Assembly: GCA_016935755.1 (NCBI GenBank)
Contig: JAFGQI010000093.1
Location: forward strand, 1 to 64,000
Length of the DNA stretch: 64,000 nucleotides
Source of the DNA: Anaerolineales bacterium
GTDB lineage: Bacteria; Chloroflexota; Anaerolineae; Anaerolineales; UBA4823
Reading direction: 5' to 3'
The first letter of the stretch is position 1. Every line of letters starts with the position of its first letter. The notes below the pieces were generated by a model. That model saw only the letters and a program-made list of their open reading frames with translations, did no database searches and was not told the origin of the DNA. Below are positions 47,114 through 63,616 of this stretch, in pieces. Made by a program: the position numbers and the translations under genes.

Positions 47114-49180
47114 TCAGGGGCAAACCCACAACGAGACATCATCCACATACATGGCGGTCACGCCGCTGTAGCCGTTGTTGTAGGTGCCGAACTGCAAGTT
47201 GATCGTCGAGCCAGCGTATGGACGCAGATCAAACGAATAGTAATGCCAGTACTGTTCGTTGCTGCGCCGCCAGATCAAAGTATCAATCCAGTTGTAGGCT
47301 GCATCCAGGATCAGCAGGTACTGCACATCCCCAGCAGAGGCCTCCTGAGACCATTCCGCCGAGGTGGGGCTCTCCGACATCGGCACGGCGGCATAGGCCT
47401 CCCCGCTGAGCGAATAGATCCAGAAGCTCAGATTGGCTGAACTCAGGCTGGCAGGTAGGGTCACCGTCTGGCGGACATCGGAATAGCTGTACCTGTTTTG
47501 CGACTGGTAATAGATCCCTGTGCGCATGGAGCGAGCTCCATTGTGCTTGAAGAAAGTGGAATACCCAGCCGAAAATGCAGTCAGAGGGGCATACCAGGCG
47601 CTGTTGTTTTCAAAACCACCGTTGCTCACCTTTTCTGTGCAGCCGGGGGGTGGAGGTGGGGGCGGAGTGCTGGTGCAGGTGTCGACATAGATTTCATCCA
47701 CATACATGGCGGTCCTGCCGCCATACCCATCATTATATGTGCCAAACTGGATGCGGATCGATTGGCCGCGATAAGCGATCAGGTTATATTCCCGATACAA
47801 CCAACCCGCTGAATTTTTGTTCGTCCAGGAGGCCAGGTATTCACGAATCACCTGAGTGTAGGGGTTCAAAATCAGAAAATACTGAGAATCAGCTGCCAGA
47901 TCAGACTCCCCCCATACGGAGCCCACCTCTGGCATGATGGCTTCTTCACTCAATGCGGCGGGTTCTTGCGATTGCGGCCAAAGGCGTACCCTCAGCACAG
48001 CGCTGGTGGCATCCGAGGGGATGGTGATGGTCTGCCAGGCATCTGAATAACTATAGACATTCGCCATGCTGTAGAGCGGGATGCCGGTGCGCATCGAGCG
48101 AGAACCCACGTAGCTGTAATCATAGGAATAACCCGCCGGGTAAGGTGTAGTCGGGATGCCCCAGTTGCCGTTGTATTCAAAACCGCTGTTGAGAATCTGG
48201 TTCACACAGGCTGGAGGCGGGGGAGGTGGAGGAGGCGGGCTGCTGGTGCAAACTTCCAGCGAAACATCATCCACGTACATGGCGGTCACCCCGCCAGCGC
48301 CATCGTTATAGGTGCCAAACTGCAGCTTGATGGATTGTCCCCTCCACTTGGTGAGATCGAAAGAGTAGTAGGTCCAAACCTGGCTGTTGGAACGCACCCA
48401 CATCAAAGTTTCCAGCAGATCGTTGCTGGTATTGAGCACCAGCACATACTGGGCGTCGAAAGCGGCTGCTTCATCCGGAGAGGCCTGTTCCAACTGTGGA
48501 CCAACCGGTTCTGGTGGCAGCGCCGAGGTCACAACTTCTCCACTCCTGGGGTTCAGCCAGGCGCGCAGGGTGATGCTGGTGGCGCCAACGGGCAGATTGA
48601 GGATCTGGCTGCGGGCGGAGGAATAGCTGTAGACGTTATCTCCCGGGTTCAGGATGCCTGTACGCACCGAACGCGCTCCGCTGTGCCATAAAGCCGTGGA
48701 GTAGGCAGCGATGGCGTCAGAGCTGGGGAAGTTCCACCAGGTGTTGGCCTCAAAACCGCCGTTCGTCACGTAGTCGCTACAAGCTGCCAGAGCTACAAAA
48801 TCCTGACCACTGAGGCTGCCTTCTACCTGAATTTCGCTTACCGATGGCGTGAACACATAGCCGCTCTTCTCCGGAGCCAGGGCATGCTGGCCTTCTGGCA
48901 GAGCGATGGTGTAATTCCCATTGTCATCGGTGGTGGTGGTGTTGCCCGCGTCATCCGTGATCACTGCGCCGGGCAAAGGATTGGCGCTGGCGTCAGTCAC
49001 CTGCCCCGACACCAGATAGGCTTCCGGCGCCTGAGATAGGAAAGGCAGGTAGAGCCAGGGCGTCATCCCAGCAGGCAGTTGTCCATCTGGGCCAGGATCT
49101 GGCAGCGTGCCAGCCAGCGCAGAGGTGGTGAAGGTTAACAGGATAACCACAAAAAGTATTGGGCGAATCAAACGAGTCAT
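47114..49180 (-). CDS. secreted protein with three copies of a 170-residue module
   Basis: A 688-residue exported protein (signal peptide 1-23, ending ALA). A carboxypeptidase regulatory-like domain (about 55-130, GQVTDASANPLPGAVI, DDNGNYTIALPEGQH) is followed by three repeats of one module (about 133-310, 325-500 and 515-688), joined by linkers of seven to nine prolines. Each repeat opens with (N/S)GGFE or NSGFE plus a Trp, has SMRTGI or SVRTGI, a VYSYS(D/S) strand, a long strand pair with QY(L/F)LIL, and closes with QFGTYN.G.(G/S)..AMYVD. The layout resembles jelly-roll carbohydrate-binding modules. No enzyme domain is present. AAAGGAGAACACC precedes the ATG. The same module ends the protein at 27874-29577. 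Confidence 0.8.
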   Translation of the reverse strand: MTRLIRPILFVVILLTFTTSALAGTLPDPGPDGQLPAGMTPWLYLPFLSQAPEAYLVSGQVTDASANPLPGAVITDDAGNTTTTDDNGNYTIALPEGQHALAPEKSGYVFTPSVSEIQVEGSLSGQDFVALAACSDYVTNGGFEANTWWNFPSSDAIAAYSTALWHSGARSVRTGILNPGDNVYSYSSARSQILNLPVGATSITLRAWLNPRSGEVVTSALPPEPVGPQLEQASPDEAAAFDAQYVLVLNTSNDLLETLMWVRSNSQVWTYYSFDLTKWRGQSIKLQFGTYNDGAGGVTAMYVDDVSLEVCTSSPPPPPPPPPACVNQILNSGFEYNGNWGIPTTPYPAGYSYDYSYVGSRSMRTGIPLYSMANVYSYSDAWQTITIPSDATSAVLRVRLWPQSQEPAALSEEAIMPEVGSVWGESDLAADSQYFLILNPYTQVIREYLASWTNKNSAGWLYREYNLIAYRGQSIRIQFGTYNDGYGGRTAMYVDEIYVDTCTSTPPPPPPPGCTEKVSNGGFENNSAWYAPLTAFSAGYSTFFKHNGARSMRTGIYYQSQNRYSYSDVRQTVTLPASLSSANLSFWIYSLSGEAYAAVPMSESPTSAEWSQEASAGDVQYLLILDAAYNWIDTLIWRRSNEQYWHYYSFDLRPYAGSTINLQFGTYNNGYSGVTAMYVDDVSLWVCP

Positions 49181-49393: not shown

Positions 49394-51298
49394 TTACAAA
49401 TCCGCTACCCACTCAATGCCCACTTCCGCCAGGGAGGCGCGGGTGGGCACTCCATCCGGAGTCCAGCCAAGGATTTGGTAGTATAGATCCAAGGCTGCAT
49501 CTATCTCAGTCTGAGTCAGTGCTACGCCAGCTGTAGGCCCGGTACCTGCCAGAGGCTGGAAGAATTTCTTTGGCAAGCGATCGTCCTTGCGCGTGAAGCC
49601 TTCACGCGCGTTGAAGGCGCGCATAAGATTCAGCCGTCGCTGCCCGACTTTCATCAGTTCGAACAGGCTGACAGGCCAGCCAGTGACAGCGCGCACCAGT
49701 TCCACGATCTCGGTTGGGCCGTAGAGCGTCCAGGCCGGCCCCCAGACAAACTGGCATAACTCCAGGGTATCCAACATACTGTAGAAGATATGCGTATAAG
49801 CCGCAAAACGGATTTTCTCTGGCCCAAGCGATCCTGGCGGCTGAACCTCTTTCAAATCCAACTCAGCCAGCCGCTCCAGGTAAAGTGGTGCGGCAATCCC
49901 ATCCTCGTACATCCAGTCATGCTCGCTGGATTGGTGGTCGGCGCCGAAGGGGTTGACCGCATAGATCAGGCCCAGGGAGCGCTTGGCCTGCGGCATGTGC
50001 GCCGGGGCCTCTTCTCCCTTCACCGCAATCAGGCAATCCTGCGCGGCAGCCCCCCAGACCGCCGCGGCGCGCACAGAGCCCTGGGAGAGCACAGATCCCA
50101 ACGGGCCAGTGTTCTTGACGATCTGATCGAGGACGGCAAGCATTGCCTCTACATTACCAAAGCGCAGTTCCAGCCCCCCAGTTTGCTGCAGGCCGATGAT
50201 ACCCTTCTCATAGCACTCCATGGCAAAAGCGATCGTCGCTCCACAGGATATTGTATCGACGCCGTACATGTTGCAGATCTGGTTGGCCAGCGAAACTGCA
50301 GCCAGATCCTGTATGCCGCAGTATGAGCCAAAGGTTGCCAGGGTTTCATATTCAGGCCCGCCATACAGCGGATCAACCTGATAAGGCCCCTCTTTTACCT
50401 CAACCACACGTTTGCAGCGCACCACGCAGGCATAGCAAGTGTCACGTTCTTTCATGATTGTTTCGCTCATCCGCTCGCCGCTGAGTTCTTCGCACCCTTC
50501 AAACTGGGCTTCGGAATAGTTGCGGGTTGGCAGAGAACCGAAACTGTTCTGCGGCATCACTACGCTGGGGGTGCCAAGTGTCCCCAGACCATCCATATCT
50601 GGATTTTCAGGCATCAACTTTGGCCCCTTACGATTCAAAGCGGTCAGGGCCTGTGGATCGGCTATCTGGGGTTTTTGCCTGCCGCGCACTACGACTGCTT
50701 TCAGGTTCTTGCTAGCCATCACCAGACCCATACCGGTGCGCCCATTGTTTCGATTGGACATATTCACCAGGCTGGCAAAACGTACGTCATTTTCTGCACC
50801 TGGGCCATACTGGAGCACCTCAATCTTTTCATCCCCCAATTCTTGCTTCAGCATGGCCTCCACCTCGCCGGTGACTTTTCCCATCAGGTGGGCTGCATCG
50901 TGCAAAGCAGGCACACCATCGATGATGGTCAGATAAACTGGACGCTCAGACCGGCCCTTGATGACCAGGCCATCAAAACCAGCAAACTTCAATTCGGCAG
51001 GGAAGAAGCCGCCGCACTGCGAGTCGCCGATGCCGCCGCTCATGGGGGATTTTGCATTGGCATTGAGCCGGCTTTGTCCCGAGATGGACGCGCCTGTAAT
51101 CACGCTGATCATCAAGGTGAGCACATTCTCGGGGGCCAGGGGATCTACTCCGGCAGGCATATCGCGCAGGATGTAGAACAAGCCCATAGCACTGCCGCCC
51201 ATGTACTTGCGGTAAAAAGATTCTGACGGCTGCTCTGTGTTTAACTGACCATGAGTCAGATCAACATGTAGAATTTTCCCATTGTAACCATTCGGCAT
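49394..51298 (-). CDS. aor: tungsten-type aldehyde:ferredoxin oxidoreductase
   Basis: A 634-residue enzyme that oxidises aldehydes to acids and passes electrons to ferredoxin; it uses a tungsten-bispyranopterin cofactor. The N-terminus GYNGKILHVDLT and NRNNGRTGMGLVMASKNLKA are family signatures. The [4Fe-4S] ligands fit Cys288, Cys291 and Cys295 (CYACVVRC) and Cys515 (LELCQF). GPEYETLATFGSYCGI and NPFGADHQSSEHDWM are also typical. It is the last gene of the catabolic run, 42 bases after a symporter gene, and could oxidise an aldehyde made by the aminotransferases. GGAGGT is placed best for the second of two adjacent ATGs. Confidence 0.93.
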   Translation of the reverse strand: MPNGYNGKILHVDLTHGQLNTEQPSESFYRKYMGGSAMGLFYILRDMPAGVDPLAPENVLTLMISVITGASISGQSRLNANAKSPMSGGIGDSQCGGFFPAELKFAGFDGLVIKGRSERPVYLTIIDGVPALHDAAHLMGKVTGEVEAMLKQELGDEKIEVLQYGPGAENDVRFASLVNMSNRNNGRTGMGLVMASKNLKAVVVRGRQKPQIADPQALTALNRKGPKLMPENPDMDGLGTLGTPSVVMPQNSFGSLPTRNYSEAQFEGCEELSGERMSETIMKERDTCYACVVRCKRVVEVKEGPYQVDPLYGGPEYETLATFGSYCGIQDLAAVSLANQICNMYGVDTISCGATIAFAMECYEKGIIGLQQTGGLELRFGNVEAMLAVLDQIVKNTGPLGSVLSQGSVRAAAVWGAAAQDCLIAVKGEEAPAHMPQAKRSLGLIYAVNPFGADHQSSEHDWMYEDGIAAPLYLERLAELDLKEVQPPGSLGPEKIRFAAYTHIFYSMLDTLELCQFVWGPAWTLYGPTEIVELVRAVTGWPVSLFELMKVGQRRLNLMRAFNAREGFTRKDDRLPKKFFQPLAGTGPTAGVALTQTEIDAALDLYYQILGWTPDGVPTRASLAEVGIEWVADL

Positions 51299-51339
51299 CA
51301 TCTACCTCCAAATCCGACAAATAGTTCTCCCGACATCAA

Positions 51340-52908
51340 TCACTCGCTGAGATCGCCAAAGCCAAAGGGCCGGTGAAAATCGACCACTTTACCATTGATA
51401 TCGGTCAGTTCCTTTGGCTTATCGAATTTCTGGGTGAGCAAAGAAACCACGATGAAGAACACCACCGAGGTGATAAACGCGGGTGTTGAGGCGATATAAA
51501 TGGCATCCCAGGTGGCGCATTCTACATCTTCTGCACAGGCTACATATGTCTGCGGATAGAAGACAAAAGTAAGGATCAGCCAGGAGATGACCCCTGAGAA
51601 GAAGGAAGCCAGAGCGCCGGTATGGTTGGCCTTCTTCCAATACATACCGATGATATATGGCGCGGCCATGCCGACCAATATCGAGGTGTTGCTGAGCACG
51701 GCCAGTTTGTAAATTGTCGTTGCGAACATGGCAATCAGCAAACTTATCGCTCCACTCACCAGCAAGCTGAGCCGCGTCATCAGCAGTTGAGTCTTATCCG
51801 AGATGTCTGGCTTGAAGACCTTGATGATATTTTCAGTGAACATGGTCGCGCCCGCCAGCATGGAGCTGTCGGAGGTGCTCATCAAGGCAGAAGCCAGAGC
51901 AGCCACAAAGACCGCAGCCAACACGGGCGGCAGGAACTTGAGCGCCATGGTGATGAGGATAAACTCAGTCTCTTCCATGGGCAGATCTGGGCCGATCGCG
52001 CCATAAGCAGCCATGCCAATGAGCGGCGAGAGCACGCCAAAGGACAGGTAGAGCAGCGCGGCCAGGTAGGTAGCTTTGACCGCAGTTGACTCATTCTTTG
52101 AGGCGCAAGTTCGCTGCAGGTAATCCTGGGCCGGAATGGCACCCAGGCCGAGAGATATCCAGGCCGCGATGTAGTAGAACCATCCTGGCGAACCAGTGTA
52201 ACCCAGATAGCCCTCATCCTTGATTGGCCAGAGGGCAAATGGCTCAGACACATACTGCGAGCCAGCCAGGCCGAAGAACTCCTTGATCCCGCCAACATTT
52301 GTGACAATGGCAGTAACGATCATGATCAAGCCAAAGCTAGTCAGGAACATCTGCATGAAGTCCAGGGCGGTATCCGCCCATAGACCGCCTGCCATGGTGT
52401 ACAAGGTGACGATGACTGCCACCAGGATCATGCCTGTGGATAGAGGCCAGCCCAGCAAAGCCTGCAGGATGCTGCCCCCAGCTACGATTTGCGCCGCGGT
52501 CCAGCCAAAATAGGTAATAATTTGAGTCACTGTGCCGATCACCGACATGGCTGTGCCATAGCGGTGCTGGAAGAAATCCATAATGGTCACATATTGGGCG
52601 CGCCGCGCAATACGAACAATGAATACGCCAGCCACCACCAGGCACATCGTTGCGCCAAACGGGTCGAACACCACCCCCTGGAACCCGTATTGGTACGCCG
52701 TAGCGCTGGAACCCATCAGGGTTTCTGCTGCGAACCAGGTAGCCATGATAGAGGGCGCTGCCATCCAAAGCGGCAGACGGCGGCCCGCCAAGACATAGTC
52801 CACATTGGTCTCAACCTTTCTGGAGGCCCAATAGCCTATGATCAGGCGGATGATCAAAATGATCACGATCCCGGCAATGATCATACCCGAATATTCATAA
52901 CCTTCCAT
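51340..52908 (-). CDS. sodium/solute symporter (SSS family), first copy
   Basis: A 522-residue transporter with about 13 membrane helices and the SSS-family core: VDYVLAGRRLPLWMAAPSIMATWFAAETLMG near the N-terminus, AGGLWADTALDFMQM and LASALMSTSDSSMLAGATMFTENI in the middle, the last likely forming the sodium site with its Ser/Thr residues. It is closely related to the symporter at 55678-57315; the N-terminal 100 residues are nearly the same. Sodium-driven uptake of an amino compound would fit the aminotransferase genes around it. AAAGGAGGAAGATA precedes the ATG. Confidence 0.9.
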   Translation of the reverse strand: MEGYEYSGMIIAGIVIILIIRLIIGYWASRKVETNVDYVLAGRRLPLWMAAPSIMATWFAAETLMGSSATAYQYGFQGVVFDPFGATMCLVVAGVFIVRIARRAQYVTIMDFFQHRYGTAMSVIGTVTQIITYFGWTAAQIVAGGSILQALLGWPLSTGMILVAVIVTLYTMAGGLWADTALDFMQMFLTSFGLIMIVTAIVTNVGGIKEFFGLAGSQYVSEPFALWPIKDEGYLGYTGSPGWFYYIAAWISLGLGAIPAQDYLQRTCASKNESTAVKATYLAALLYLSFGVLSPLIGMAAYGAIGPDLPMEETEFILITMALKFLPPVLAAVFVAALASALMSTSDSSMLAGATMFTENIIKVFKPDISDKTQLLMTRLSLLVSGAISLLIAMFATTIYKLAVLSNTSILVGMAAPYIIGMYWKKANHTGALASFFSGVISWLILTFVFYPQTYVACAEDVECATWDAIYIASTPAFITSVVFFIVVSLLTQKFDKPKELTDINGKVVDFHRPFGFGDLSE

Positions 52909-52980
52909 CTTATCTTCCTCCTTTTTCTTTTGTAATGGGTTATATGATCACTGAAAGAATTAAAATGATATTTTTGAGGG

Positions 52981-54186
52981 TTACATCTCCTTAATCCCAT
53001 ATGGGAATCCATAATCAGCCATCCTTTCCATGAATGGGACTGGATCAAACGCCTCCGGGCCAAGCACACCCACTGCTTTCCAGAGACCGTGCTGCAGCAG
53101 ATCCCAGCCGATCACAGCGTTAAAGGCTGTCTGCGCCACCACTGACTGGCAGCCCCAGGTCTGCATACACTCTTCATTATCGGCAACCTGGTAAATATAA
53201 ACCTGGCGCGGTTTCCCATCCTTCTTACCCTTGATCCAGGTGCCGGCGCAGGTTTTACCGAACATGCGATCGCCCAGGTGGGCCGGGTCTGGCAGGCAAG
53301 CTGCCACCACGTCGCGCGGGGCAACCATGACATCCTTGACCTTGATCGGCTCTTTGTTATCCAGGCCAAGCATATGCAGGGTCTTAAGCACACCGATGAA
53401 CTGGTCGCCCAGGCCGTATTTGAAGGTCACGCGTTTGCATTTCACCCAACGCGGCACGAGCAGTACCTCTTCATGCTCCACATTGACCACCTCAACTTTA
53501 CCAATGCCCTCAGGAAATTCAAAGATTTCAGGTTCGGAAAATGGCTCGGTAGTGAACCAGCCTTTGGCTGCTTCCCAGATTACAGGTGGATTCAGACATT
53601 CCTCGATCGTGGTCCAGATGGAAAAGTTGGGGGCAAACTCATAGCCGCGCACTTCGATGTTGGCGCCATCCCGGATGCCGATCTCCTCAATCTCATCGAA
53701 CAGATAATCCTGAGCGTAACGGGCGAACACATCCGCCATGCCTGGCTCGACTCCCAGGCCGAGCAATGCCAGCAAGCCCTTCTTCTCCCACTGGACCGCG
53801 CGTTCGAACTGGTAATCGCCCAGCTTGACGCCGCAGACCTGGTAAGGCTGCTCGGGATGCGGCTCCGACAGGGTCATGGCCATATCCATATAGGTGCAGC
53901 CGTAGGAATAAGCCGCCTCGAAGATAGGCACATTGAAGGATGGATCGCAAGCGTTCATAATCAGATCGACATGATACTTGCGCGCCAGCTCTTCGATCTT
54001 CTGTTGATCCCCGGCGTCCACCCATTCAATCGGAAAACGCTCCGGCTGCCCCAGCTTAGCCTGCACTTCCTGGCAGCGGGCGAGGTTATAATCAGCCAAC
54101 ACAACCAGTTCAACCCAGGGACGTGGTTTGGCTATCGCCGCGATCGCCTCGCCAACACCCCCCACTCCGACAAGTAATACTTTCAT
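52981..54186 (-). CDS. saccharopine dehydrogenase-like oxidoreductase
   Basis: A 401-residue Rossmann-fold protein. The nucleotide-binding motif GVGGVGEAIA is at residues 7-16, followed by the acidic turn VVLADYN and NACDPSFNVPIFEAAYSYGCTYMDMA, the usual sequence of this family. Known relatives are saccharopine dehydrogenase and carboxynorspermidine synthase, which join or split an amino acid and an aldehyde through an imine. GLGVEPGMADVFARYA is the substrate-domain entry. In this cluster it could make or cut such a C-N linked compound, but the substrate is not known. AAAAGGAGAAAAC precedes the ATG. Confidence 0.82.
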   Translation of the reverse strand: MKVLLVGVGGVGEAIAAIAKPRPWVELVVLADYNLARCQEVQAKLGQPERFPIEWVDAGDQQKIEELARKYHVDLIMNACDPSFNVPIFEAAYSYGCTYMDMAMTLSEPHPEQPYQVCGVKLGDYQFERAVQWEKKGLLALLGLGVEPGMADVFARYAQDYLFDEIEEIGIRDGANIEVRGYEFAPNFSIWTTIEECLNPPVIWEAAKGWFTTEPFSEPEIFEFPEGIGKVEVVNVEHEEVLLVPRWVKCKRVTFKYGLGDQFIGVLKTLHMLGLDNKEPIKVKDVMVAPRDVVAACLPDPAHLGDRMFGKTCAGTWIKGKKDGKPRQVYIYQVADNEECMQTWGCQSVVAQTAFNAVIGWDLLQHGLWKAVGVLGPEAFDPVPFMERMADYGFPYGIKEM

Positions 54187-54211
54187 ACGTTTTCTCCTTT
54201 TTTTACCTGGC

Positions 54212-54266
54212 TGAATGGGAGTTGAGGATCTTCAAAACCTGGTGGTGATTTCTCAACTCCCATTCA
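54212..54266 (-). promoter_or_regulatory. 15-bp intercistronic hairpin
   Basis: TGAATGGGAGTTGAG (54212-54226) pairs perfectly with CTCAACTCCCATTCA (54252-54266) over a 25-base loop. It lies between the putrescine aminotransferase-like gene and the next gene of the same strand. On the minus strand an A-rich stretch with the next ribosome binding site follows, not a T-run, so an mRNA-stability or processing element is more likely than a terminator. Confidence 0.55.
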
Positions 54267-54274
54267 ATTTGTGC

Positions 54275-55633
54275 CTACAGTGTTTTAGATATTTCAGCCA
54301 ACGTATCAGACAGCCGGTCGAGCACAGCGCTGAGCTGCTCAATTGTAATTACCAACGGCGGCTCGATGCGAATGGTTTGGGCGCTGGTCAGGGTGCCGGC
54401 AACCAATACCCCGCGCTTGAACAGTCCTGCGGCAACTTTATAACCCACCTCAGGATTGTGGAAATGCATGCCGATCAGCAAGCCTTTCCCCGTGATACCA
54501 TAAAACATTTGAGGGTATTGGGCAACCAGTTCTTTTAGCTTCGGGATCATGAACTCGCCCTTAGCAGCAGCCTGCTCCCACAGACGATCACGCAAGGTCA
54601 CATTGATGGCTGCAATCGCCGCACTGCATGCCAGCGCTCCGCCTCCGGTCGTGGTCGTGTGGATGAAGGGGTTGGGGAACATCATGCACTGCCAGATCTC
54701 CTCCGTAGAGCAGAAGGCGCTGACTGGCATGACCCCGCCGCCCAGCGATTTTGCCACCGAGAGGATATCCGGCACCACATCCCAATGGTCTACTCCCCAC
54801 AGCTTCCCCGTGCGGCCCAGGCCCGTCTGCACTTCGTCGGCAATCAGCAGTACGCCGTAATGCCTGGTCATCTCTCGCAGGCGCGGCCAGAAGTCATCCG
54901 GCGGCACGATCCCACCCGCTTCACCCTGGATCGGCTCAAAAAGACAGGCCGCGATATCTATGCCCACCTTTTGACATATCTCCAGCTGGCGCTCTACTGC
55001 GTCCGCATCGCCAAAAGGCACATGGTAAACCGGCCCGCCATACATCATGCCCACCGGCTGGCGGTAATCCGATTTGCCCAACATCGACAGCGAGCCCATC
55101 GTCTTGCCGTGGAAAGCCTTAACCGCCACGATAAAGCCGCTCTTGCGGGTGTACATCTTGGCGAGCTTGATCGCGCCTTCAATACACTCTGTGCCGCTGG
55201 CGGCAAAGAAGCTGTATTTGATATCGCCAGGGGTGATTTCAGCCATCAAACGCGCCAGAACGCCGCGCAGCGGGTCGATCAATTCCTGGCTGGGCATGGG
55301 AGTGCGTCCAAGCTGTGATCGCACAGCGGCGACCACATCCGGATGTCCCCAGCCCAGGTCCATCATGCCATATCCGCCCAGGCAGTCGATATACTCACGT
55401 CCCAGCACGTCCCGGAAAATCGCCCCTGAGCCAGTCCATTCAGTAGCCGCCCAGTCGCCCGCCTCGGTGACCGACTTGCGGTAATCCAGCCAGCCTCGGT
55501 TGAAGTGCTCGGCAAAGTTGTACTTGCTTTCCTCGCAGATCCACTTTCCCTCGTCTTCTGGCACTTCAGATTTCTTGATGATCTCCAGCCAGCGTTGAGA
55601 ATACGCCAGGGCTTCAGATAGATTTTTCTGCAT
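54275..55633 (-). CDS. class III aminotransferase, putrescine aminotransferase-like
   Basis: A 452-residue PLP enzyme. It matches the putrescine/cadaverine aminotransferase branch: an N-terminal extension before FRDVLGREYIDCLGGYGM, FFAASGTECIEGAIKLAK, VAVKAFHGKTMGSLS, EPIQGEAGGIVPPDDFW, DEVQTGLGRTG and the PLP lysine in SVAKSLGGG. PatA moves the terminal amino group of putrescine to 2-oxoglutarate and gives 4-aminobutanal. The exact amine here (putrescine, cadaverine or an omega-amino acid) is inferred only from likeness. It is flanked by the two symporters and the saccharopine-dehydrogenase-like gene. AAAGGAGAG precedes the ATG. Confidence 0.88.
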   Translation of the reverse strand: MQKNLSEALAYSQRWLEIIKKSEVPEDEGKWICEESKYNFAEHFNRGWLDYRKSVTEAGDWAATEWTGSGAIFRDVLGREYIDCLGGYGMMDLGWGHPDVVAAVRSQLGRTPMPSQELIDPLRGVLARLMAEITPGDIKYSFFAASGTECIEGAIKLAKMYTRKSGFIVAVKAFHGKTMGSLSMLGKSDYRQPVGMMYGGPVYHVPFGDADAVERQLEICQKVGIDIAACLFEPIQGEAGGIVPPDDFWPRLREMTRHYGVLLIADEVQTGLGRTGKLWGVDHWDVVPDILSVAKSLGGGVMPVSAFCSTEEIWQCMMFPNPFIHTTTTGGGALACSAAIAAINVTLRDRLWEQAAAKGEFMIPKLKELVAQYPQMFYGITGKGLLIGMHFHNPEVGYKVAAGLFKRGVLVAGTLTSAQTIRIEPPLVITIEQLSAVLDRLSDTLAEISKTL

Positions 55634-55677
55634 ATGAACTCTCCTTTGTCACATCATGATCCAATCAGAGAATGACG

Positions 55678-57315
55678 CTAATCGTCAAATTCTTCAGGCC
55701 GCAGCTTGCGAATTGCATCCCGCAGCGGCATCCAGCCAATATTATGGAAGGGATTGGTGTCGAATTCTTCCCCGTCAATATTGGTGATCGGTTTCGGGGG
55801 GTCTTTCTTTTGGGTAGCCAGAGAAACAAACACCATCAACAGCATCGAACAGACAAATGCGGGGAAGGAGGAAACATAGACTGCATCCCAGAAAGCGCAG
55901 TTAGCATCGCCTTCGCAAACCACAATGGTCGGATCTCCTAACATCCCAAATTGATAGGCTACATAAATTCCGATGGCCCAAACCAGAAATCCCCCCAGGT
56001 AAGCTGCCACAGCCCCATACTGGTTGGATTTCTTCCAGTACATGCCCAAGGCAAAGGGAGCAAACAGCCCAACCAGGAGCAGAGACCAGGCCAGGACACC
56101 TAACTCATAGATCGTCGCGGCTGTCATAGCAATCAGGATCGCCAGGAAACCGATGATACCCACCCAGATGCGCGTCGAGCGCACCTTCTGCTTTTCATTC
56201 ATCTTGTATCCTAACATGGGCAACAGATTTTCTGTCACCACCGCCGCGCCAGCCAGCAAAGCGCTATCTGAGGTGCTCATCAGCGCTGAAGATAAAGCCG
56301 CCAGGAAGATAGCGGTAAGAACGGGCGGCAGGTAGTTCAAAGCGGCATTCACCAGCACCCCTTCCATTTGAGCGTCCACCAGGCCTGGGTTCAGCTTGAA
56401 CATCATGATGCCGATCAAGGGAGACATAATCCCAAAGAACCCGTACAAAGCGCCAGCCATATAGCTGCCCCAAACTGCCGTAGCCTCGTTGCGAGCCGCC
56501 ATTGAGCGCTGAAACAGGTCCTGGGTGGGCACGCTGCCCAGACCAATTGCCATCCAGGCAGCCATCCAGTACATCCAGCCCATCCCCCCAAGATAACCTA
56601 AATACCCCGTGCCGCCTGCATCGGGGGTGATGGTGAAGGGTTGTGGATTGTAAAGCGTTTCTTGGATGGAGGTCAAACCCGACCAACCTCCCACTGCCTT
56701 CAGTACAAACAAGAAAATCAGGGTGACGCCGCCAGCGGTGAAGAACATCTGCATAAAGTCGAGCAGTGTATCCGCTAACATACCACCTAACATGGTATAA
56801 CAGGTGACCACAATAGCCACCACAATCATGCCGACCTCGAGCGGGATATTTGGGAAGAGGGCATGTACAATTGTGCCGGCTGCTACCAACTGTGCTCCTG
56901 TCCAAACAAAATAGGTGATCAGCTGGATAACCGACGATAAAATCGTCATCGCCTTACCAAAACGACGCTCAAAAAAGTCAACCAGGGTGAGGTAGCGCGC
57001 CCGGCGCATCAGGCGAGTAAAGAAGAAACCCGTCACGAACAGGCACACGGTTGCACCAAAGGGGTCGAAAAGCACACCCTGAAAGCCGTATTGGTATGCC
57101 GTGGCAGAAGCGCCCATCATGGTCTCCGCGGCGAACCAGGTAGCCATGATGGATGCGCCCGCCATGTAGATCGGCAGACGTCTTCCAGCAACGATATAGT
57201 CGGCTGCATTCTTCACCCGGCGTGAGGCCCAGATACCGACCGCAATCCGGATCGAAAAGAAGATAGCTATGCCAATTACCACCAACCATACATATCGATA
57301 ACCTTCAAGATCCAT
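55678..57315 (-). CDS. sodium/solute symporter (SSS family), second copy
   Basis: A 545-residue transporter, a close paralogue of the one at 51340-52908, with the same core: ADYIVAGRRLPIYMAGASIMATWFAAETMMG, LGGMLADTLLDFMQMFFT and LSSALMSTSDSALLAGAAVVTENL. The C-terminal tail after the last helix is longer and ends EEFDD. Two related symporters in one cluster suggest two related substrates, or a high- and a low-affinity carrier. CAGGAGAG precedes the ATG. It follows the semialdehyde dehydrogenase gene by 63 bases. Confidence 0.9.
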   Translation of the reverse strand: MDLEGYRYVWLVVIGIAIFFSIRIAVGIWASRRVKNAADYIVAGRRLPIYMAGASIMATWFAAETMMGASATAYQYGFQGVLFDPFGATVCLFVTGFFFTRLMRRARYLTLVDFFERRFGKAMTILSSVIQLITYFVWTGAQLVAAGTIVHALFPNIPLEVGMIVVAIVVTCYTMLGGMLADTLLDFMQMFFTAGGVTLIFLFVLKAVGGWSGLTSIQETLYNPQPFTITPDAGGTGYLGYLGGMGWMYWMAAWMAIGLGSVPTQDLFQRSMAARNEATAVWGSYMAGALYGFFGIMSPLIGIMMFKLNPGLVDAQMEGVLVNAALNYLPPVLTAIFLAALSSALMSTSDSALLAGAAVVTENLLPMLGYKMNEKQKVRSTRIWVGIIGFLAILIAMTAATIYELGVLAWSLLLVGLFAPFALGMYWKKSNQYGAVAAYLGGFLVWAIGIYVAYQFGMLGDPTIVVCEGDANCAFWDAVYVSSFPAFVCSMLLMVFVSLATQKKDPPKPITNIDGEEFDTNPFHNIGWMPLRDAIRKLRPEEFDD

Positions 57316-57378
57316 GGTACTCTCCTGAGTCTTTAGGATAGCTGGCGTCGGGCAGCATTCTTACTGCAGAACACCAGC

Positions 57379-58854
57379 CTAAAATTTACGCGTCCATTCT
57401 TTAGGCCAACGTTCGACCACCACTTTCTTTTGGGTGAAGAAATCCACCGCGTCCATGCTCTGCCCATGCAGATCGCCGAAGAAACTCTCCTTCCAACCGC
57501 TGAAGGGAAAAAAGGCCATCGGCGCGGCAACCCCGATGTTGATGCCGATATTGCCCGCCTCGGCTTCATAGCGGAAGCGGCGCGCAGCCGTTCCGCTGGA
57601 GGTGAACAGGCTGGCCTGGTTGCCATAGTCTGCACTGTTCACCAGGGAAATTGCATCCTCAATTGTGTTGACATGCATCAGCCCCAATACCGGGCCGAAG
57701 ATCTCCGTGCGCGCCGTCTGGCTGCCAGGTTTTAAATCCGAGATAATCGTGGGGCGTACAAAACAGCCCGCTTCGTAGCCGGGAATCTGAGCCCCGCGAC
57801 CATCCACCAACACATTGAAGCCTTCTTCAGCGCCAGTTTGGATCGCCCCTTCGATGCGGTGCTGGCTCTGCCGGGTGATGACCGGCCCCATCTGCACCCC
57901 AGCATCCAATCCATACCCCACCACTCGGCTGACGGCCGCATCGCAGATGCCCTCCGTAAATGGATGACGTGCTTCTGCCACGGTAATCACCAGGGAGGTA
58001 GCCAGGCAGCGCTGCCCTGCACAGCCAAAGGCGCTATCGGCAGTGATACGAACCGCCATATCCAGGTCAGCATCTGGCAGAACAATGACCGGGTTCTTGG
58101 CGCCTCCCTGGGCCTGGATGCGCTTCCCATTCGCGGCTCCACGAGAATAGATATAACGGGCTACCGGGGTCGAGCCGACAAAGCTGATGGCTCGAACAGC
58201 AGGATGATCCAGCAGTGCGTCGACCGCCTCCTTAGCCCCATTGACCAGGTTGAGCACGCCCTTTGGCAGCCCAATCTGCTCTACCAGGTGGAAGATCTTC
58301 TGCATGCTCAGGGATACTTTCTCGGACGGCTTGACCACATAAGTATTGCCGCAAGCCACAGCATAGGGCAGGAACCAGAAAGGAATCATGCCGGGGAAAT
58401 TGAATGGGCAGATCACCGCACAAACGCCCACCGGCTGACGGAGCATGATTTCATCGATGCCCGGAGCAATGTCTTCAGAAATCACACCCTGCATCATGAG
58501 CGGTATCCCACAGGCTACTTCCACGTTCTCAATCGCCCGGCGCATCTCTGCCCTTGACTCTTCGTAAGTTTTGCCGCATTCCATGGTGATCGTACGCGAG
58601 ATGTCCTCGATATTGGCTTCCAGCTGATGCTTCAGCTTGAACAGGTATTGGATGCGTTCTGGCGGAGGTGTACGCCGCCAGGCGGGATAGGCATCCGCAG
58701 CAGCCTGTACCGCTGTATCTACCTCCGCCTTGGATGAAAGCGGTGTGCGGCCTAAGACTTCTGCAGTAGCAGGGTTGATCACTTCAACGAATTCGGTGGC
58801 TTGTGAGACAATCCACTGGTTGTTGACGTAGTTGAGTATGTTGTTTTCAGTCAT
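57379..58854 (-). CDS. CoA-acylating (methyl)malonate-semialdehyde dehydrogenase
   Basis: A 491-residue aldehyde dehydrogenase-fold enzyme. [23 protein letters not shown] and [19 protein letters not shown] match the MmsA branch, the catalytic cysteine is Cys283 in GQRCLATS, and QGGAKNP replaces the glutamate base of ordinary aldehyde dehydrogenases. That change is the mark of the CoA-acylating type, in which CoA attacks the thioester. The enzyme turns malonate or methylmalonate semialdehyde into acetyl- or propionyl-CoA with CO2 and NADH. An open frame extends 19 codons upstream, but the ATG at 58854 has GGAGCAG before it and begins at the family N-terminus. Confidence 0.9.
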
Positions 58855-58919
58855 ATCTGCTCCATTTCTAGGCCAGCGCAGATCGTCCGTGGGGATGGAG
58901 GCTCGCTGCACTGTCTGGG

Positions 58920-60242
58920 TTATTCCCTGGCTTGCCGGTCGGTGATTGCCAGGGCTTGCTCGATGATTGCCAGGCCTTCGTCAATCTGATCCTGGGTGAT
59001 GCACAAAGGCGGTACAACGAAGAGGATATTATGGAAATTAAAAGTGAACAAATTATTGTCGCGCAAGAATTTGGCCACTTCGGTTAATGGATCGATCGGC
59101 TGCTTAGTTTGCTTGCTGTTAACAATTTCCAGGGCAGAAAACAGACCAATATAGCGCACGTCGCCCACGGAGGCATGACGGGTTTTGATCTGCTCCAGAC
59201 GCTGGCCCAGATACTCGCCCAGCCGGTCAGCATTTTCGATCAGCCCATCTTCTTCATACACTGCCAGTGTAGCCACCGCAGCCGCGCAAGCCAATGGATG
59301 ACCGCTGTAAGTCAGCCCACACCACAGCATCTTGTCATCAAAGTATTTGGCCATCCGATCGGAGACAATCACAGCTCCCAGCGGCACGTAACCGGAAGTC
59401 AGCCCCTTGGCTGTGGTGATCATATCGGGGATCACATTCCAGTTATCCACCGCAAACCATCGGCCAGTCCGGCCCCAACCGCTCATCACTTCATCCGATA
59501 CCAAGAGAATGCCATATTTATCGCAAATCTCTCGCACGCGCGGCCAGTAATCATCCGGAGGCACAATCAGCCCATTCGAACCGGTCACACCTTCCATGAA
59601 AATCGCTGCAATTTGGTCAGGGCCTTCATAGTAGATGAGTTCTTCGATGTGCTGGATGCACTCCCGGTGGCAGGTTTCACGTGTCCAACCGAATGGGCAG
59701 CGGTAGCAGTAGGGATCAAGGAAATGCACCACCCCGGGCATAGCCGGCTCAACCGGCAGGCGGCGATAATCTCCCGTCAGGGCGATGGCGCCATGCGTGG
59801 CACCGTGATAGGAACGGTAGCGCGCCATGATCTTAAACCGCTTGGTATAGGCCCGCGCCATCTTAATCGCGTTTTCATTAGCCTCTGCGCCGCCCAGGCA
59901 GAAAAAGGTTTTGTTCAAATCACCCGGAGCGACTTCAGCGATTTTCTTGCCCAGCAAGCCGCGCGGCTCGGTCGCCATGCCGGGATGGGCATAGCACAGT
60001 TGAGCCGCCTGATCCTGGATTGCCCGGACCACCTTTGGATTCTGGTGGCCAATGTTCAGATTCATCAACTGGGAAGAGAAATCGATGTAGCGCTTACCAT
60101 CCACATCCCAGAAGTAAATCCCTTCGGCGCGCGCGATTGGGATCGGGTTGGCAGACGCCTGCACAGACCAGGAGAAGAAAGTGTACTCCCGATTTAAGGC
60201 GACCATTTCTTGGGCTGTCATAGCCTTTTTTTGTTCTACCAC
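58920..60242 (-). CDS. class III aminotransferase (omega-amino acid:pyruvate type)
   Basis: A 440-residue PLP enzyme. It shows [68 protein letters not shown] and the PLP lysine in [16 protein letters not shown] Cys-rich insertion ([17 protein letters not shown]) is like that of taurine- and beta-alanine-type aminotransferases. Together with the neighbouring CoA-acylating dehydrogenase this suggests transamination of beta-alanine or 3-aminoisobutyrate to the semialdehyde. The start is GTG with a perfect AGGAGG five bases upstream; the nearest ATG is seven codons later. Confidence 0.87.
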
Positions 60243-60290
60243 ATATGCCTCCTATATAGCCTTAGAATAAAAACGCCCATGAGATGCACC

Positions 60291-61595
60291 TTATCTCTTG
60301 ACCGTGCGGATCACTTCACGCATCACATTGAGTGTTTCAGCGATAATTTCATCGGTATGAGCGTAGCACAAGAACCAGGGCTCGCGCGGGTCATGATCTG
60401 GCATCACACCGCGTTCAATTGCCGCCTCGATCAGGCGCAGGTAGTACTCTTTTTCGCTGTTATCCCAGCTGCGCTGGTCGGTGATCTTTTCCGCTCCTAT
60501 CGCAAACGAGAACATCGCCGGATAGCCGTTCATGACCACAGGAATGCCTGCTTCTGAAAACAACTGCTGGATGCCATCCATCAAACGCTGACCGCGTTCT
60601 GTGATGGTCTTCAGAATTGGTCTCTCCTGGAGCAGGGTCAGCGTAGCATATGCGCCGGCTACACCAGGTTTATTGTTGTTGTAGGTGCCCCCTTGCGATA
60701 CGCCGCGCCCGATATTCTCCATAATCACCCGCTTACCGCCAAAAGCCGCCAACGGATAACCATTTCCAATCGCCTTAGCGTAGGTAGCCATGTCCGGATC
60801 CAGGTTGTAATACTCTTGCGCGCCACCGTTAGCAATGCGGAATCCGGTTTTCACTTCATCCAGGATAAAGACGATGCCATATTCTGTGCATTTCTGGCGG
60901 ATAAGTTCTAAGAAACCAGGCGCGGGCAAGATGGCGCCGCAGTTGCCCATGCACGGCTCGGCAATGATTGCGGCCACCTGGTGGCCAAGGCTGCGTAATG
61001 TTTTCTCCAGGATTTCAAAGTTGTTAAAGGGTAAAGTGATGATCAATTCATTCAATGCGCGCGGAATCCCTGATCCCGAAGGCACCGGAATTGGGTTGCG
61101 ATAGCTGCCGTAGGCTTCGACAGGCGCATACGTCGACCATAAGGTGTAATCCTGGAACCCATGATACATGCCCTCAAATTTGATGACTTTTTCCCGGCCT
61201 GTGTAAGCCCGCGCTACACGCAGTGCATGCATGGTGGCTTCTGTGCCAGAGCAGGCAAGGCGAGCCATCTCCACTCCGGGGCACATGGCGACAATCTTCT
61301 CCATCACTGCAATTTCCAGTTCACTGGTCATGGCGCACAGCAGGCCATTGTCAATCTCTCTCTTGACAATGGCGTCCACCTCATCGTCTGCGTGTCCAAG
61401 AATGATCGGGCCAAATGCCAGGCGGTAGTCAATGAAGCGGTTGCCGTCCGCATCCCATAGATAAGCCCCTTTCGCTTTTGACACATACGGGGTAATGTCA
61501 TCCCCCCAAAAGCGAAAATTTGAATTCACCCCCAACGGCATGACCGCCTGGGCTCTCCGCTGAAGCTGCCTGTTCTTCTCAAATGGAATATGCAT
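60291..61595 (-). CDS. glutamate-1-semialdehyde aminomutase-like class III aminotransferase
   Basis: A 434-residue PLP enzyme of the HemL-like branch: WGDDITPYVSKAKGAYLWDADGN, ACSGTEATMHALRVARAYTGR, KFEGMYHGFQDY, AEPCMGNCGAILPAPGFLE, LDEVKTGFR and the PLP lysine in ATYAKAIGNGYPLAAFGG. No other haem-biosynthesis gene is near and it lies in an amino-catabolic run, so it more likely moves an amino group within, or from, an amino acid than makes aminolevulinate. The ATG at 61595 has GAAGGAG five bases upstream and starts the family N-terminus; a frame open 17 codons further up has no support. Confidence 0.83.
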   Translation of the reverse strand: MHIPFEKNRQLQRRAQAVMPLGVNSNFRFWGDDITPYVSKAKGAYLWDADGNRFIDYRLAFGPIILGHADDEVDAIVKREIDNGLLCAMTSELEIAVMEKIVAMCPGVEMARLACSGTEATMHALRVARAYTGREKVIKFEGMYHGFQDYTLWSTYAPVEAYGSYRNPIPVPSGSGIPRALNELIITLPFNNFEILEKTLRSLGHQVAAIIAEPCMGNCGAILPAPGFLELIRQKCTEYGIVFILDEVKTGFRIANGGAQEYYNLDPDMATYAKAIGNGYPLAAFGGKRVIMENIGRGVSQGGTYNNNKPGVAGAYATLTLLQERPILKTITERGQRLMDGIQQLFSEAGIPVVMNGYPAMFSFAIGAEKITDQRSWDNSEKEYYLRLIEAAIERGVMPDHDPREPWFLCYAHTDEIIAETLNVMREVIRTVKR

Positions 61596-61656
61596 AGTGC
61601 TCCTTCCTCTGGAATAGACAAAAAGACGCAGCCTGCTGCGTCTCATGAGTAGAATT

Positions 61657-62154
61657 TCAAGTTTCTTTAGTTTCGCTTGAAATGCTTAGATTCCCCGGTA
61701 TCTGCCACTGATGCGTGTCCTTCAAAACCAGAGGAACAATCGATGTGGTCGTTTTACGAACACCTGGGGTCTTCCCAATCACCTCGGTCACAAAGCGATA
61801 AATTTCCTCGGTGGTTTTTCCAACTACCTGGACGCTTACATCGGTCTCTCCAATCGAGCAAGCTACATAGGTGATGCATTCATATTCAGTCATCTTTTGG
61901 GCTACTTCCAGGATGGAATCCGACTCAACTTCCAGCCAGACATCTGCCACGATGGTATAGCCAAGCAGCTTGGGATTGATTACCGAAGTGATTGAGATCA
62001 ACCCCTCGGCGATCATGCGGTCAATCCGATAACCGACCATGCGCTGAGACACAGCCCCAATTCGCCGGGCAATCTCAGCGCAGGACATGCGACCATCTTC
62101 GTTTAGGAGATTAACAATCTGGGCGTCGATATTGTCTATTTGATACATATTCAT
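61657..62154 (-). CDS. Lrp/AsnC-family transcriptional regulator
   Basis: A 165-residue regulator. The winged helix-turn-helix is at residues 7-58 (IDNIDAQIVNLLNEDGRMSCAEIARRIG, then RMVGYRIDRMIAEGLI), and a RAM effector-binding fold follows at about 65-145. Such proteins sense amino acids and control their transport and breakdown. It stands first in the minus-strand run of amino-compound genes, 61 bases before the aminomutase-like gene, so it is the probable regulator of that run and of itself. The frame starts MNMYQ, without a clear ribosome binding site. Confidence 0.92.
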   Translation of the reverse strand: MNMYQIDNIDAQIVNLLNEDGRMSCAEIARRIGAVSQRMVGYRIDRMIAEGLISITSVINPKLLGYTIVADVWLEVESDSILEVAQKMTEYECITYVACSIGETDVSVQVVGKTTEEIYRFVTEVIGKTPGVRKTTTSIVPLVLKDTHQWQIPGNLSISSETKET

Positions 62155-62275: not shown

Positions 62276-63616
62276 CTATGCGCAGCAGATTTCGCTCACC
62301 ACCTGCCATAAGGCCGGCAAGCCAGATCTGAAGAAAGACACTGGCAGGCGTTCATCATGAGCGTGAGCCATTTTTGTTAATGAGATCTCTGGAGGCAATA
62401 TCCCTGGTGTAAAACCATACACCTTAATCCCTGCGCGTTGGTATAGACTGGCGTCTGTAGCTCCTGGCATCAGCAGTGGAAAGGTAATGCCCTCTCCATC
62501 CATCTGCTTCAACGCTTTTTCCATCAGCCGGTACAAAGGTGTATCCACGGGAAATTCTGCGCCTGTAGAAGTTGTGAGCGGCTCCAGTTTTACCTGGCGC
62601 CCCATCACCGCTGATAGCTCTCGGATCACATCCTCCGGCTTTTGGCCTGGCAGCAATCGGCAATCCAGATGAACCGATGCTTCAGACGGGATCACGTTTG
62701 ATTTACTGCCAGCTTGCAGCACGGTTGGGCTGACCGAGTTGCTCAGCCAGGCGATGAATAATGGTCTCTGTTCAACGGGCAGCATACGCAGCAGCACCCC
62801 TGCTAGCGCGGGTGAACGCATCAGCCCCAGCACCACACCCAGGGGGAAACCAAGGTTTTCAGCCAACGAATCTAACATGCGTCGAACCGTGGGAGTCAGG
62901 TGAATGGGCAGGTGACCAGCGCGGCGCAGCCGCTCCAGGGCTTTCGCCAGATGCAGCACAGCATTATCTTCGTGCGGCATGGAGCCATGCCCTGGCTGTC
63001 CAAAGGTCGAGGCTCGCAACCAACAGACACTCTTCTCAGCCACCTGAATGGGATAGACACGCTTCTTCCCCATGTAGGCGGTCAACCCACCCGATTCGGT
63101 CAGGCCGTATTCGGCTGCAATCAAATCGCGATGCTGTTCTACCAGGAACTGAGAGCCATGTTCAAAGCCAGCTTCCTCATCAGCAATTGCCGCCAGGATC
63201 AAGTCTCGTTTTAATGGCAGCCCCTGCTGGCGAGCCTGGATAAAGACCGACATATACATAGAAAGAAAGCCCTTCATGTCGGCAGTGCCGCGCCCCCAGA
63301 CACAGCCATCCACCACCTCTCCACCGAAAGGATCGTGAGTCCAAAATTTCGGTTCCACCGGCACCACATCGACATGCCCACTTAACAGCAATGGCGGCTG
63401 AGAGCCATCTCCACGCAGGCGCGCCACCAGGTTCGCCCGTCCTGGCGCAGATTCCAGAATCACCATGTCACCAGCAGGAATACCCTCCCGCGCAAGCAAA
63501 TCTCTGATCCAGATCACCGCCGGCAGTTCATTCCCAGGAGGGTTGGTGGTATCTATGCGGATCAGCTGCACCAGATTTTCAATCGTTTTTTCAGTCAGGA
63601 AATCAAAATTAATCAT
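62276..63616 (-). CDS. M20-family metallopeptidase (ArgE/DapE-like)
   Basis: A 446-residue amidohydrolase. Zinc ligands and base are in SGHVDVVPV, WGRGTADMKG, AIADEEAGFEHG and, near the end, MAHAHDERLPV; GQPGHGSMPHED marks the lid domain (about 190-315). Relatives cleave N-acyl amino acids or short peptides such as N-acetylornithine, succinyl-diaminopimelate or carnosine. An acyl amino acid or beta-alanyl peptide would fit the amino-catabolic genes downstream, but the promoter before the Lrp gene separates the two units. Promoter TTGTAG-17-TATACT is upstream. Confidence 0.88.
   Translation of the reverse strand: MINFDFLTEKTIENLVQLIRIDTTNPPGNELPAVIWIRDLLAREGIPAGDMVILESAPGRANLVARLRGDGSQPPLLLSGHVDVVPVEPKFWTHDPFGGEVVDGCVWGRGTADMKGFLSMYMSVFIQARQQGLPLKRDLILAAIADEEAGFEHGSQFLVEQHRDLIAAEYGLTESGGLTAYMGKKRVYPIQVAEKSVCWLRASTFGQPGHGSMPHEDNAVLHLAKALERLRRAGHLPIHLTPTVRRMLDSLAENLGFPLGVVLGLMRSPALAGVLLRMLPVEQRPLFIAWLSNSVSPTVLQAGSKSNVIPSEASVHLDCRLLPGQKPEDVIRELSAVMGRQVKLEPLTTSTGAEFPVDTPLYRLMEKALKQMDGEGITFPLLMPGATDASLYQRAGIKVYGFTPGILPPEISLTKMAHAHDERLPVSFFRSGLPALWQVVSEICCA

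Follow-up and report, generated by a model that had tools for sequence, protein, structure and literature searches.

The stretch of DNA analysed here (64,000 nucleotides, positions 1 to 64,000 of contig JAFGQI010000093.1 in the Anaerolineales assembly GCA_016935755.1; hereafter the window) carries a cluster of nine genes whose probable role in amine breakdown is the subject of this work. The window genome is an assembly of metagenome-assembled genome (MAG) quality, 87.5% complete with 7.45% contamination. The minus strand holds all nine open reading frames (ORFs), each intact, between 62154 and 49394, and we refer to them in that direction as Lrp (a regulator), GntE (a HemL-like class III aminotransferase), wAT (omega-amino acid aminotransferase), ALDH (aldehyde dehydrogenase), SSS1 (sodium/solute symporter 1), PAT (putrescine aminotransferase), SDH (a dehydrogenase with the 'saccharopine dehydrogenase' fold that resembles carboxyspermidine dehydrogenase, CASDH), SSS2 (symporter 2), and AOR (aldehyde:ferredoxin oxidoreductase). 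With corrected start sites, the intergenic gaps are 61 bp (Lrp-GntE), 48 bp (GntE-wAT), 65 bp (wAT-ALDH), 63 bp (ALDH-SSS1), 44 bp (SSS1-PAT), 88 bp (PAT-SDH), 72 bp (SDH-SSS2), and 38 bp (SSS2-AOR), i.e., an overall range of 38-88 bp, and several of the genes have clear Shine-Dalgarno sequences ahead of them. The initial annotation had described nine genes on one strand with short gaps and had given each a family name, and both descriptions held up: family searches returned an AsnC/Lrp regulator, three class III aminotransferases, an ALDH of the (methyl)malonate-semialdehyde dehydrogenase (MMSDH) type, a pair of SSF symporters, an AOR, and a protein with the fold of saccharopine dehydrogenase.

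The gene order is widely conserved. A search for SDH in 301 Chloroflexota genomes found it in 32, and 16 of these are sampled genomes of a sister family with the same order: Lrp-GntE-wAT-ALDH-(SSS1)-PAT-PotABCD-(Lrp2)-SDH-(SSS2)-AOR-wAT2-(GntE2)-AOR2, where wAT2 is a gamma-aminobutyrate (GABA)-transaminase-like enzyme and AOR2 is a second AOR. On the same strand, ALDH, PAT, PotA, PotD, and SDH occur in 16/16 sister genomes, wAT in 15/16, GntE in 14/16, AOR and wAT2 in 11/16 each, AOR2 in 9/16, and each of the two symporters in 3/16, with several of the absences falling at contig ends. Most cluster genes are approximately 70-85% identical in protein sequence to their counterparts in other genomes with this order. 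The nearest named MAGs (L092, L093, and L096; SDH 85-87% identical) have the arrangement of the window, with both symporters and without PotABC, and another (L157; SDH 82% identical) has PotABCD and no symporter. Some named loci come from the same assemblies as other loci compared here (e.g., L097/L041 and L106/L042) and are not independent of them. In the window genome, wAT2 and AOR2 lie together on another small contig and are 63% and 65% identical, respectively, to their counterparts in sister genome G005. Chance is far from accounting for an order that all 16 sister genomes and many named Anaerolineales MAGs keep, and, judged by this conservation, the cluster is a genuine functional unit. 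The initial annotation had read it as a single pathway, a reading that the conserved neighbourhood in related genomes bears out. At 10.3-17.1 kb of locus L039 (genome G160), an otherwise conserved cluster is interrupted between SDH and AOR by HsdM, HsdS, and HsdR genes of type I restriction-modification.

The relatives also give the clearest indication of what the unit handles. In all 16 sister genomes, genes for the polyamine transporter PotABCD sit between PAT and SDH, with the PotA-type subunit over the cut-off of TIGR01187 and with PotB, PotC, and PotD as the best matches of the other subunits. When the relatives' PotD is aligned to that of E. coli, the aromatic and acidic residues that we take to form the polyamine pocket are kept or conservatively changed, except Gln327. 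The two symporters of the window, SSS1 (55678-57315) and SSS2 (51340-52908), both match PF00474 and are 49% identical to each other; several relatives likewise have SSS2 placed behind SDH, and SSS1 occurs, besides the three sister genomes, in the nearest relatives, which mostly have no PotABCD at the locus. PotABCD and the symporters thus share one neighbourhood and partly substitute for each other, which suggests that the symporters carry the same amines or related ones. A stand-alone gene for a PotD-like binding protein lies between SSS2 and AOR in L093 (12898-13965, plus strand), the locus of a close relative that has the symporters and no PotABC nearby.

PAT (54275-55633) appears to be of the PatA/YgjG type. 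It scores 590.8 bits against the NCBIfam family NF008570, under the cut-off of 612, and its next family reaches 487 bits and all others at most 285. Among solved structures, only E. coli PatA is found below 1e-70 (442 bits). In Desulfocucumis, the SDH locus includes two homologues of PAT that do pass the NF008570 cut-off, at 620 and 674 bits. The same partners recur outside Chloroflexota. In Desulfocucumis palustris they are PotABCD, PAT, and a homologue of SDH (53%), together with the second PAT and an AOR accompanied by ferredoxin. A single stretch of Anoxynatronum buryatiense (L134, 0.2-12.3 kb) encodes a sigma-54 regulator, SDH, ferredoxin, AOR, an SSF symporter, an agmatinase-like protein, and another SSF symporter. 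In Streptomyces smaragdinus, SDH is accompanied by PotABC-like genes and a pair of aminobutyraldehyde dehydrogenases.

AOR (49394-51301) matches PF02730 (AFOR_N) and PF01314 (AFOR_C). Its closest solved structure is the Pyrococcus enzyme 1aor, which it matches over the full length (349 bits), and the cysteines of the [4Fe-4S] cluster are kept in the aligned motifs CYACVVRC and ELC. By family it would be a tungsten-type enzyme, although tungsten and molybdenum are not distinguishable from sequence. It differs from the Pyrococcus enzyme in its setting, an amine pathway in which some relatives fill its slot with another enzyme altogether: aminobutyraldehyde dehydrogenases (673-690 bits vs the cut-off of 615) follow SDH in G064 (the same locus as L053; 10.9-15.8 kb), in L126 (11.0-12.5 kb), and in L124, from a Spirochaetaceae MAG (3.0-4.4 kb). 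To judge by the families involved, this swap is a non-homologous replacement of a ferredoxin-linked enzyme by an NAD-linked one. It is also the best evidence that AOR oxidises amino-aldehydes.

Four lines of evidence therefore agree: PotABCD inside the cluster, the PatA-like PAT, the exchange of AOR for aminobutyraldehyde dehydrogenases, and the same partners outside Chloroflexota. Together they support polyamine catabolism via amino-aldehydes as the best reading of the unit, with polyamines clearly favoured as its substrates. The initial annotation had offered polyamines or beta-amino acids as candidates. The first was strengthened by the transporter genes, the PotD pocket, and the dehydrogenase swaps; beta-alanine fits better as an intermediate of spermidine breakdown than as a competing substrate.

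The aminotransferase wAT (58920-60242) belongs to the PRK06062 subfamily (NF004718, 558 bits vs 472) and has taurine:2-oxoglutarate aminotransferase 6jix as its closest solved relative (402 bits; next best 291). A conversion of beta-alanine to malonate semialdehyde is plausible for such an enzyme. ALDH (57379-58854) scores 533.4 bits vs 448.5 for TIGR01722, the CoA-acylating (methyl)malonate-semialdehyde dehydrogenases, and its closest solved structures are all MMSDHs. Alignment to three of these (5tjr, 4zz7, and 9q0d) shows that it keeps the catalytic Cys and both arginines that are assigned to the substrate carboxylate in the B. subtilis enzyme. The general-base Glu, whose absence had already been pointed out in the initial annotation, is indeed missing, and it is absent from the solved MMSDHs too. 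Conversion of malonate semialdehyde to acetyl-CoA by ALDH is well supported by family. ALDH thus resembles IolA/MmsA, being over the family cut-off, with the Cys and without the general-base Glu, but its genomic neighbours point to the transport of polyamines and the transamination of amines rather than to inositol or valine.

These affinities also speak for a different view of the cluster, in which GntE, wAT, ALDH, and Lrp form a core for growth on beta-amino acids or on omega-amino acids resembling taurine, which it would degrade, and the polyamine genes belong to a neighbouring pathway that shares the beta-alanine end. The nearness of wAT to a taurine aminotransferase and the true MMSDH-family membership of ALDH would both suit it, as would the spacing in G064, where the core block stands away from the PAT-Pot-SDH block. 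Even so, we consider it unlikely: GntE, wAT, and ALDH share strand and order with PAT-Pot-SDH in 14 of the 16 sister genomes, the other two losing genes near contig ends, and family searches of the cluster proteins found no sulfonate-specific or pyrimidine-specific gene.

Within the polyamine reading, an unusual member is SDH (52981-54186), which we characterised from its sequence and an AlphaFold model (pLDDT 92). NCBIfam gives it a single match, to the carboxynorspermidine synthase family, at 198 bits against a cut-off of 800. Compared with the Protein Data Bank, the model is nearest to the four solved CASDHs (8DEB, 4RL6, 4INA, and 8H4Z), with a template modelling (TM) score of approximately 0.9; all of the top 14 matches are CASDH chains or the CASDH-like 4INA/4RL6 (E down to 9e-44, TM 0.85-0.92). 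The nearest solved relatives by sequence are CASDHs too. Other folds are more distant: lysine 6-dehydrogenase at 0.73, saccharopine dehydrogenases at approximately 0.7, and homospermidine synthase at 0.70. In B. fragilis CASDH, the catalytic residues are His228-Glu229-Glu230, a triad that saccharopine and lysine dehydrogenases lack, and NADPH is bound via Ser34-Arg35-Thr36, with no NADH activity (PMC10413350).

SDH shares the CASDH triad and departs from CASDH around it. Across 113 loci, where conservation is partly selected in 80 because the patterns used to find them contain Trp191-Glu196 or His238-Glu240, the triad is present as His238-Glu239-Glu240 in 113/113, Arg187 of the NPEIN(L/I)RE motif of all four solved CASDHs is replaced by Glu195 in 113/113, and Glu183, also common to the four, is replaced by Trp191 in 112/113. 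Glu195, Glu196, and His238-Glu240 are likewise invariant in SDH sequences found without patterns (18 sequences for the triad). CASDH Glu188 is kept as Glu196, Ser144 becomes Ala151 in the window SDH, and there is an insertion near residues 104-120. At the NADPH-binding site, Ser34-Arg35-Thr36 gives way to A31-Asp32-Tyr33-Asn34, and every one of the 112 sequences that cover it has D or E. Enzymes whose second Rossmann strand ends in an acidic residue normally prefer NAD over NADP, and NAD is the usual cofactor of catabolic dehydrogenases. Asp32 therefore predicts that SDH uses NAD rather than NADP.

A plain CASDH working in spermidine synthesis was rejected as an identity for SDH, since the tests of the cofactor-site motif, the Arg, and the partner gene all failed. 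The partner decarboxylase gene nspC (carboxynorspermidine decarboxylase) was over its cut-off in 0/30 SDH carrier genomes, and ordinary speD and speE are found elsewhere in 6/7 sister genomes tested, making SDH dispensable for spermidine synthesis there. On its residues and predicted fold, SDH is best described as a divergent relative of CASDH in which residues of the cofactor site and the pocket have changed. Its likeliest activity would be to oxidise the secondary amine of a carboxylate-free polyamine and so cleave it to amino-aldehydes.

The same features would also suit a synthetic role, in which 4-aminobutanal made by PAT is reductively coupled to putrescine by SDH to give homospermidine with no carboxylated intermediate. 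The CASDH fold and catalytic triad would serve such a coupling, the loss of Arg and gain of Glu195 are right for a substrate without a carboxylate, and SDH stands alone in many Streptomyces. We think this role quite unlikely: the predicted NAD preference fits oxidation better than synthesis, aldehyde-oxidising enzymes follow SDH and importers accompany it, and most sister genomes tested have spermidine synthesis genes elsewhere. Catabolism of lysine or cadaverine, with SDH as a saccharopine or lysine 6-dehydrogenase and the aminotransferases acting on C5 amines, would suit the annotation of SDH as saccharopine dehydrogenase family and the generally held view that PatA-type enzymes accept cadaverine too, but it is very improbable, as the fold ranking and the invariant His-Glu-Glu triad led us to reject either identity for SDH.

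The gene identities, the conserved order, the substitutions involving Pot genes and aminobutyraldehyde dehydrogenases, and the active-site changes are observations, and from them we infer every reaction and direction of flow in the following route. We consider it probable, though well short of certain, that the cluster serves to break down polyamines in a probably anaerobic Anaerolineales and that it works as follows. Polyamines would be taken up by the sodium symporters, which would replace the PotABCD of relatives or act alongside it. SDH, running in the NAD-reducing direction, would oxidise the secondary amine of spermidine to yield putrescine and 3-aminopropanal; this is the most conjectural of the steps. 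PAT would transaminate putrescine to 4-aminobutanal, a step well supported by family, and AOR would oxidise the amino-aldehydes to beta-alanine and GABA and pass the electrons to ferredoxin, as its replacement in relatives suggests. The beta-alanine would then be converted by wAT to malonate semialdehyde and by ALDH to acetyl-CoA and CO2. GABA would be handled by the GABA-transaminase-like wAT2 and AOR2, which belong to the same cluster in relatives and to the other contig in the window genome.

Several points weigh against this route. The HemL-like enzyme is left without an assigned step. No PotD homologue was matched in the window genome (in a search without a positive control of a genome 87.5% complete), so what ties this particular genome to polyamines is PAT, SDH, and the evidence from its relatives, and the substrates of the symporters are not readable from sequence. 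SDH also occurs on its own, without PAT or AOR, in Streptomyces and in other Chloroflexota, and it must therefore serve outside the AOR pathway as well. Finally, co-transcription of all nine genes is uncertain because a terminator-like hairpin follows Lrp: a 9-pair stem and then TTTTT, at 61623-61644 on the minus strand, between Lrp and GntE. Among 16 relatives compared, none has a stem with a T run like it, which makes it specific to the window. It may be a terminator or attenuator that only this genome has, and transcription of the regulator may here be partly separate from that of the other cluster genes.

Of the known systems, the E. coli PatA/PatD aminotransferase pathway is close in plan to the proposed polyamine unit, with a PatA-type aminotransferase, an aldehyde-oxidising step and, in relatives, a GABA-transaminase-like enzyme and Pot uptake. 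Unlike that pathway, the cluster has AOR in place of an NAD aldehyde dehydrogenase; it adds SDH, the HemL-like enzyme, and a CoA-acylating MMSDH; and in the window genome it has sodium symporters. Bacterial homospermidine synthase 6Y87 is of the same superfamily as SDH and acts on diamines via NAD-bound oxidation and Schiff bases, but its TM score to SDH is only approximately 0.70. The open-access literature searched yielded no published pathway with this gene set and nothing relevant on a pathway joining AOR and putrescine or on polyamine catabolism in Anaerolineae; the initial annotation, too, knew of no described pathway with exactly this set. The bacterial polyamine pathways that have been described (gamma-glutamylation, aminotransferase, spermidine dehydrogenase, direct oxidation, and acetylation) are summarised without an AOR or a CASDH-like step (PMC5403932). 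The cluster would be a new form of bacterial polyamine catabolism, and the SDH family could turn out to represent an enzyme of a new type.

The SDH family, with the signature WTTIEECL...VEHEEV, has over 570 candidate loci among the GTDB genomes, spread over Chloroflexota, Spirochaetota, Bacillota, and Actinomycetota. Tentatively, we propose that this family is an undescribed NAD-dependent polyamine-cleaving dehydrogenase that arose from CASDH by a switch of cofactor and pocket charge, and that its amino-aldehyde products are passed, in anaerobes, to a tungsten enzyme, polyamine carbon yielding reduced ferredoxin as well as acetyl-CoA. Polyamines are a source of nitrogen and carbon in sediments and digesters, and the cluster would give the uncultured, widespread Anaerolineales a concrete diet, with energy saved as reduced ferredoxin. 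It would also provide a testable function for a large family annotated only as saccharopine dehydrogenase, including members in cultivable Streptomyces, Anoxynatronum, and Desulfocucumis. Anoxynatronum buryatiense is a cultured strain and would be a tractable host for such tests. The single-gene SDHs of Streptomyces, Microbispora, and Nonomuraea (L136-L170) are 60-63% identical, a divergent TetR-like regulator adjoins them in 25 of 32 loci, and no polyamine context was found around the Streptomyces genes except at L137.

The HemL-like enzyme (60291-61595) is assigned to the GntE type by NF041362 (634 bits vs 525), and against the HemL family TIGR00713 it reaches 383 bits, under the cut-off of 527. 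As a heme enzyme it was rejected: five genomes that carry the HemL-like gene, namely that of the window and G112, G160, G297, and G046, have no hemA over its cut-off, and two other relatives have a separate true HemL besides it. The initial annotation had treated it as a pathway enzyme rather than a true glutamate-semialdehyde aminomutase, and these results leave the aminomutase identity unsupported. The NCBIfam label GntE derives from cyanobacterial guanitoxin synthesis. No other guanitoxin family matched among the cluster proteins, to which this search was confined, and the label would therefore mislead, putting the name of a toxin-synthesis enzyme on a widespread Chloroflexota enzyme. Heme synthesis itself appears patchy in this order, to judge by family cut-offs: no hemA is over its cut-off in G000, G112, G160, G297, G046, and G255, several of them 97-99% complete, and the last of these nevertheless has a strong true HemL.

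Two start sites were corrected. For GntE, the true start is probably the ATG at 61595 (MHIPFEKN) rather than the printed ORF start at 61646, because a Shine-Dalgarno sequence (AGGAAGGAGC) precedes this ATG, relatives begin there, and 61646 sits at the foot of the hairpin. For ALDH, it is probably the ATG at 58854 (MTENNILNY), behind GGAG, rather than the printed GTG at 58911. The regulator Lrp (61657-62154) matches PF13404 and PF01037 over their cut-offs and comes first in the conserved order of relatives; it is a probable local regulator of the cluster. A promoter-like site, weakly indicated, lies at 62221-62192, 38 bp upstream of Lrp. The M20 peptidase gene further upstream (62276-63616; 121 bp from the cluster) was rejected as a member, as it is not conserved with the unit. 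Directly downstream, at 47114-49180 on the minus strand, is a gene for a secreted-looking protein of 688 amino acids with three similar domains joined by proline-rich linkers, which is no member of the cluster in relatives.

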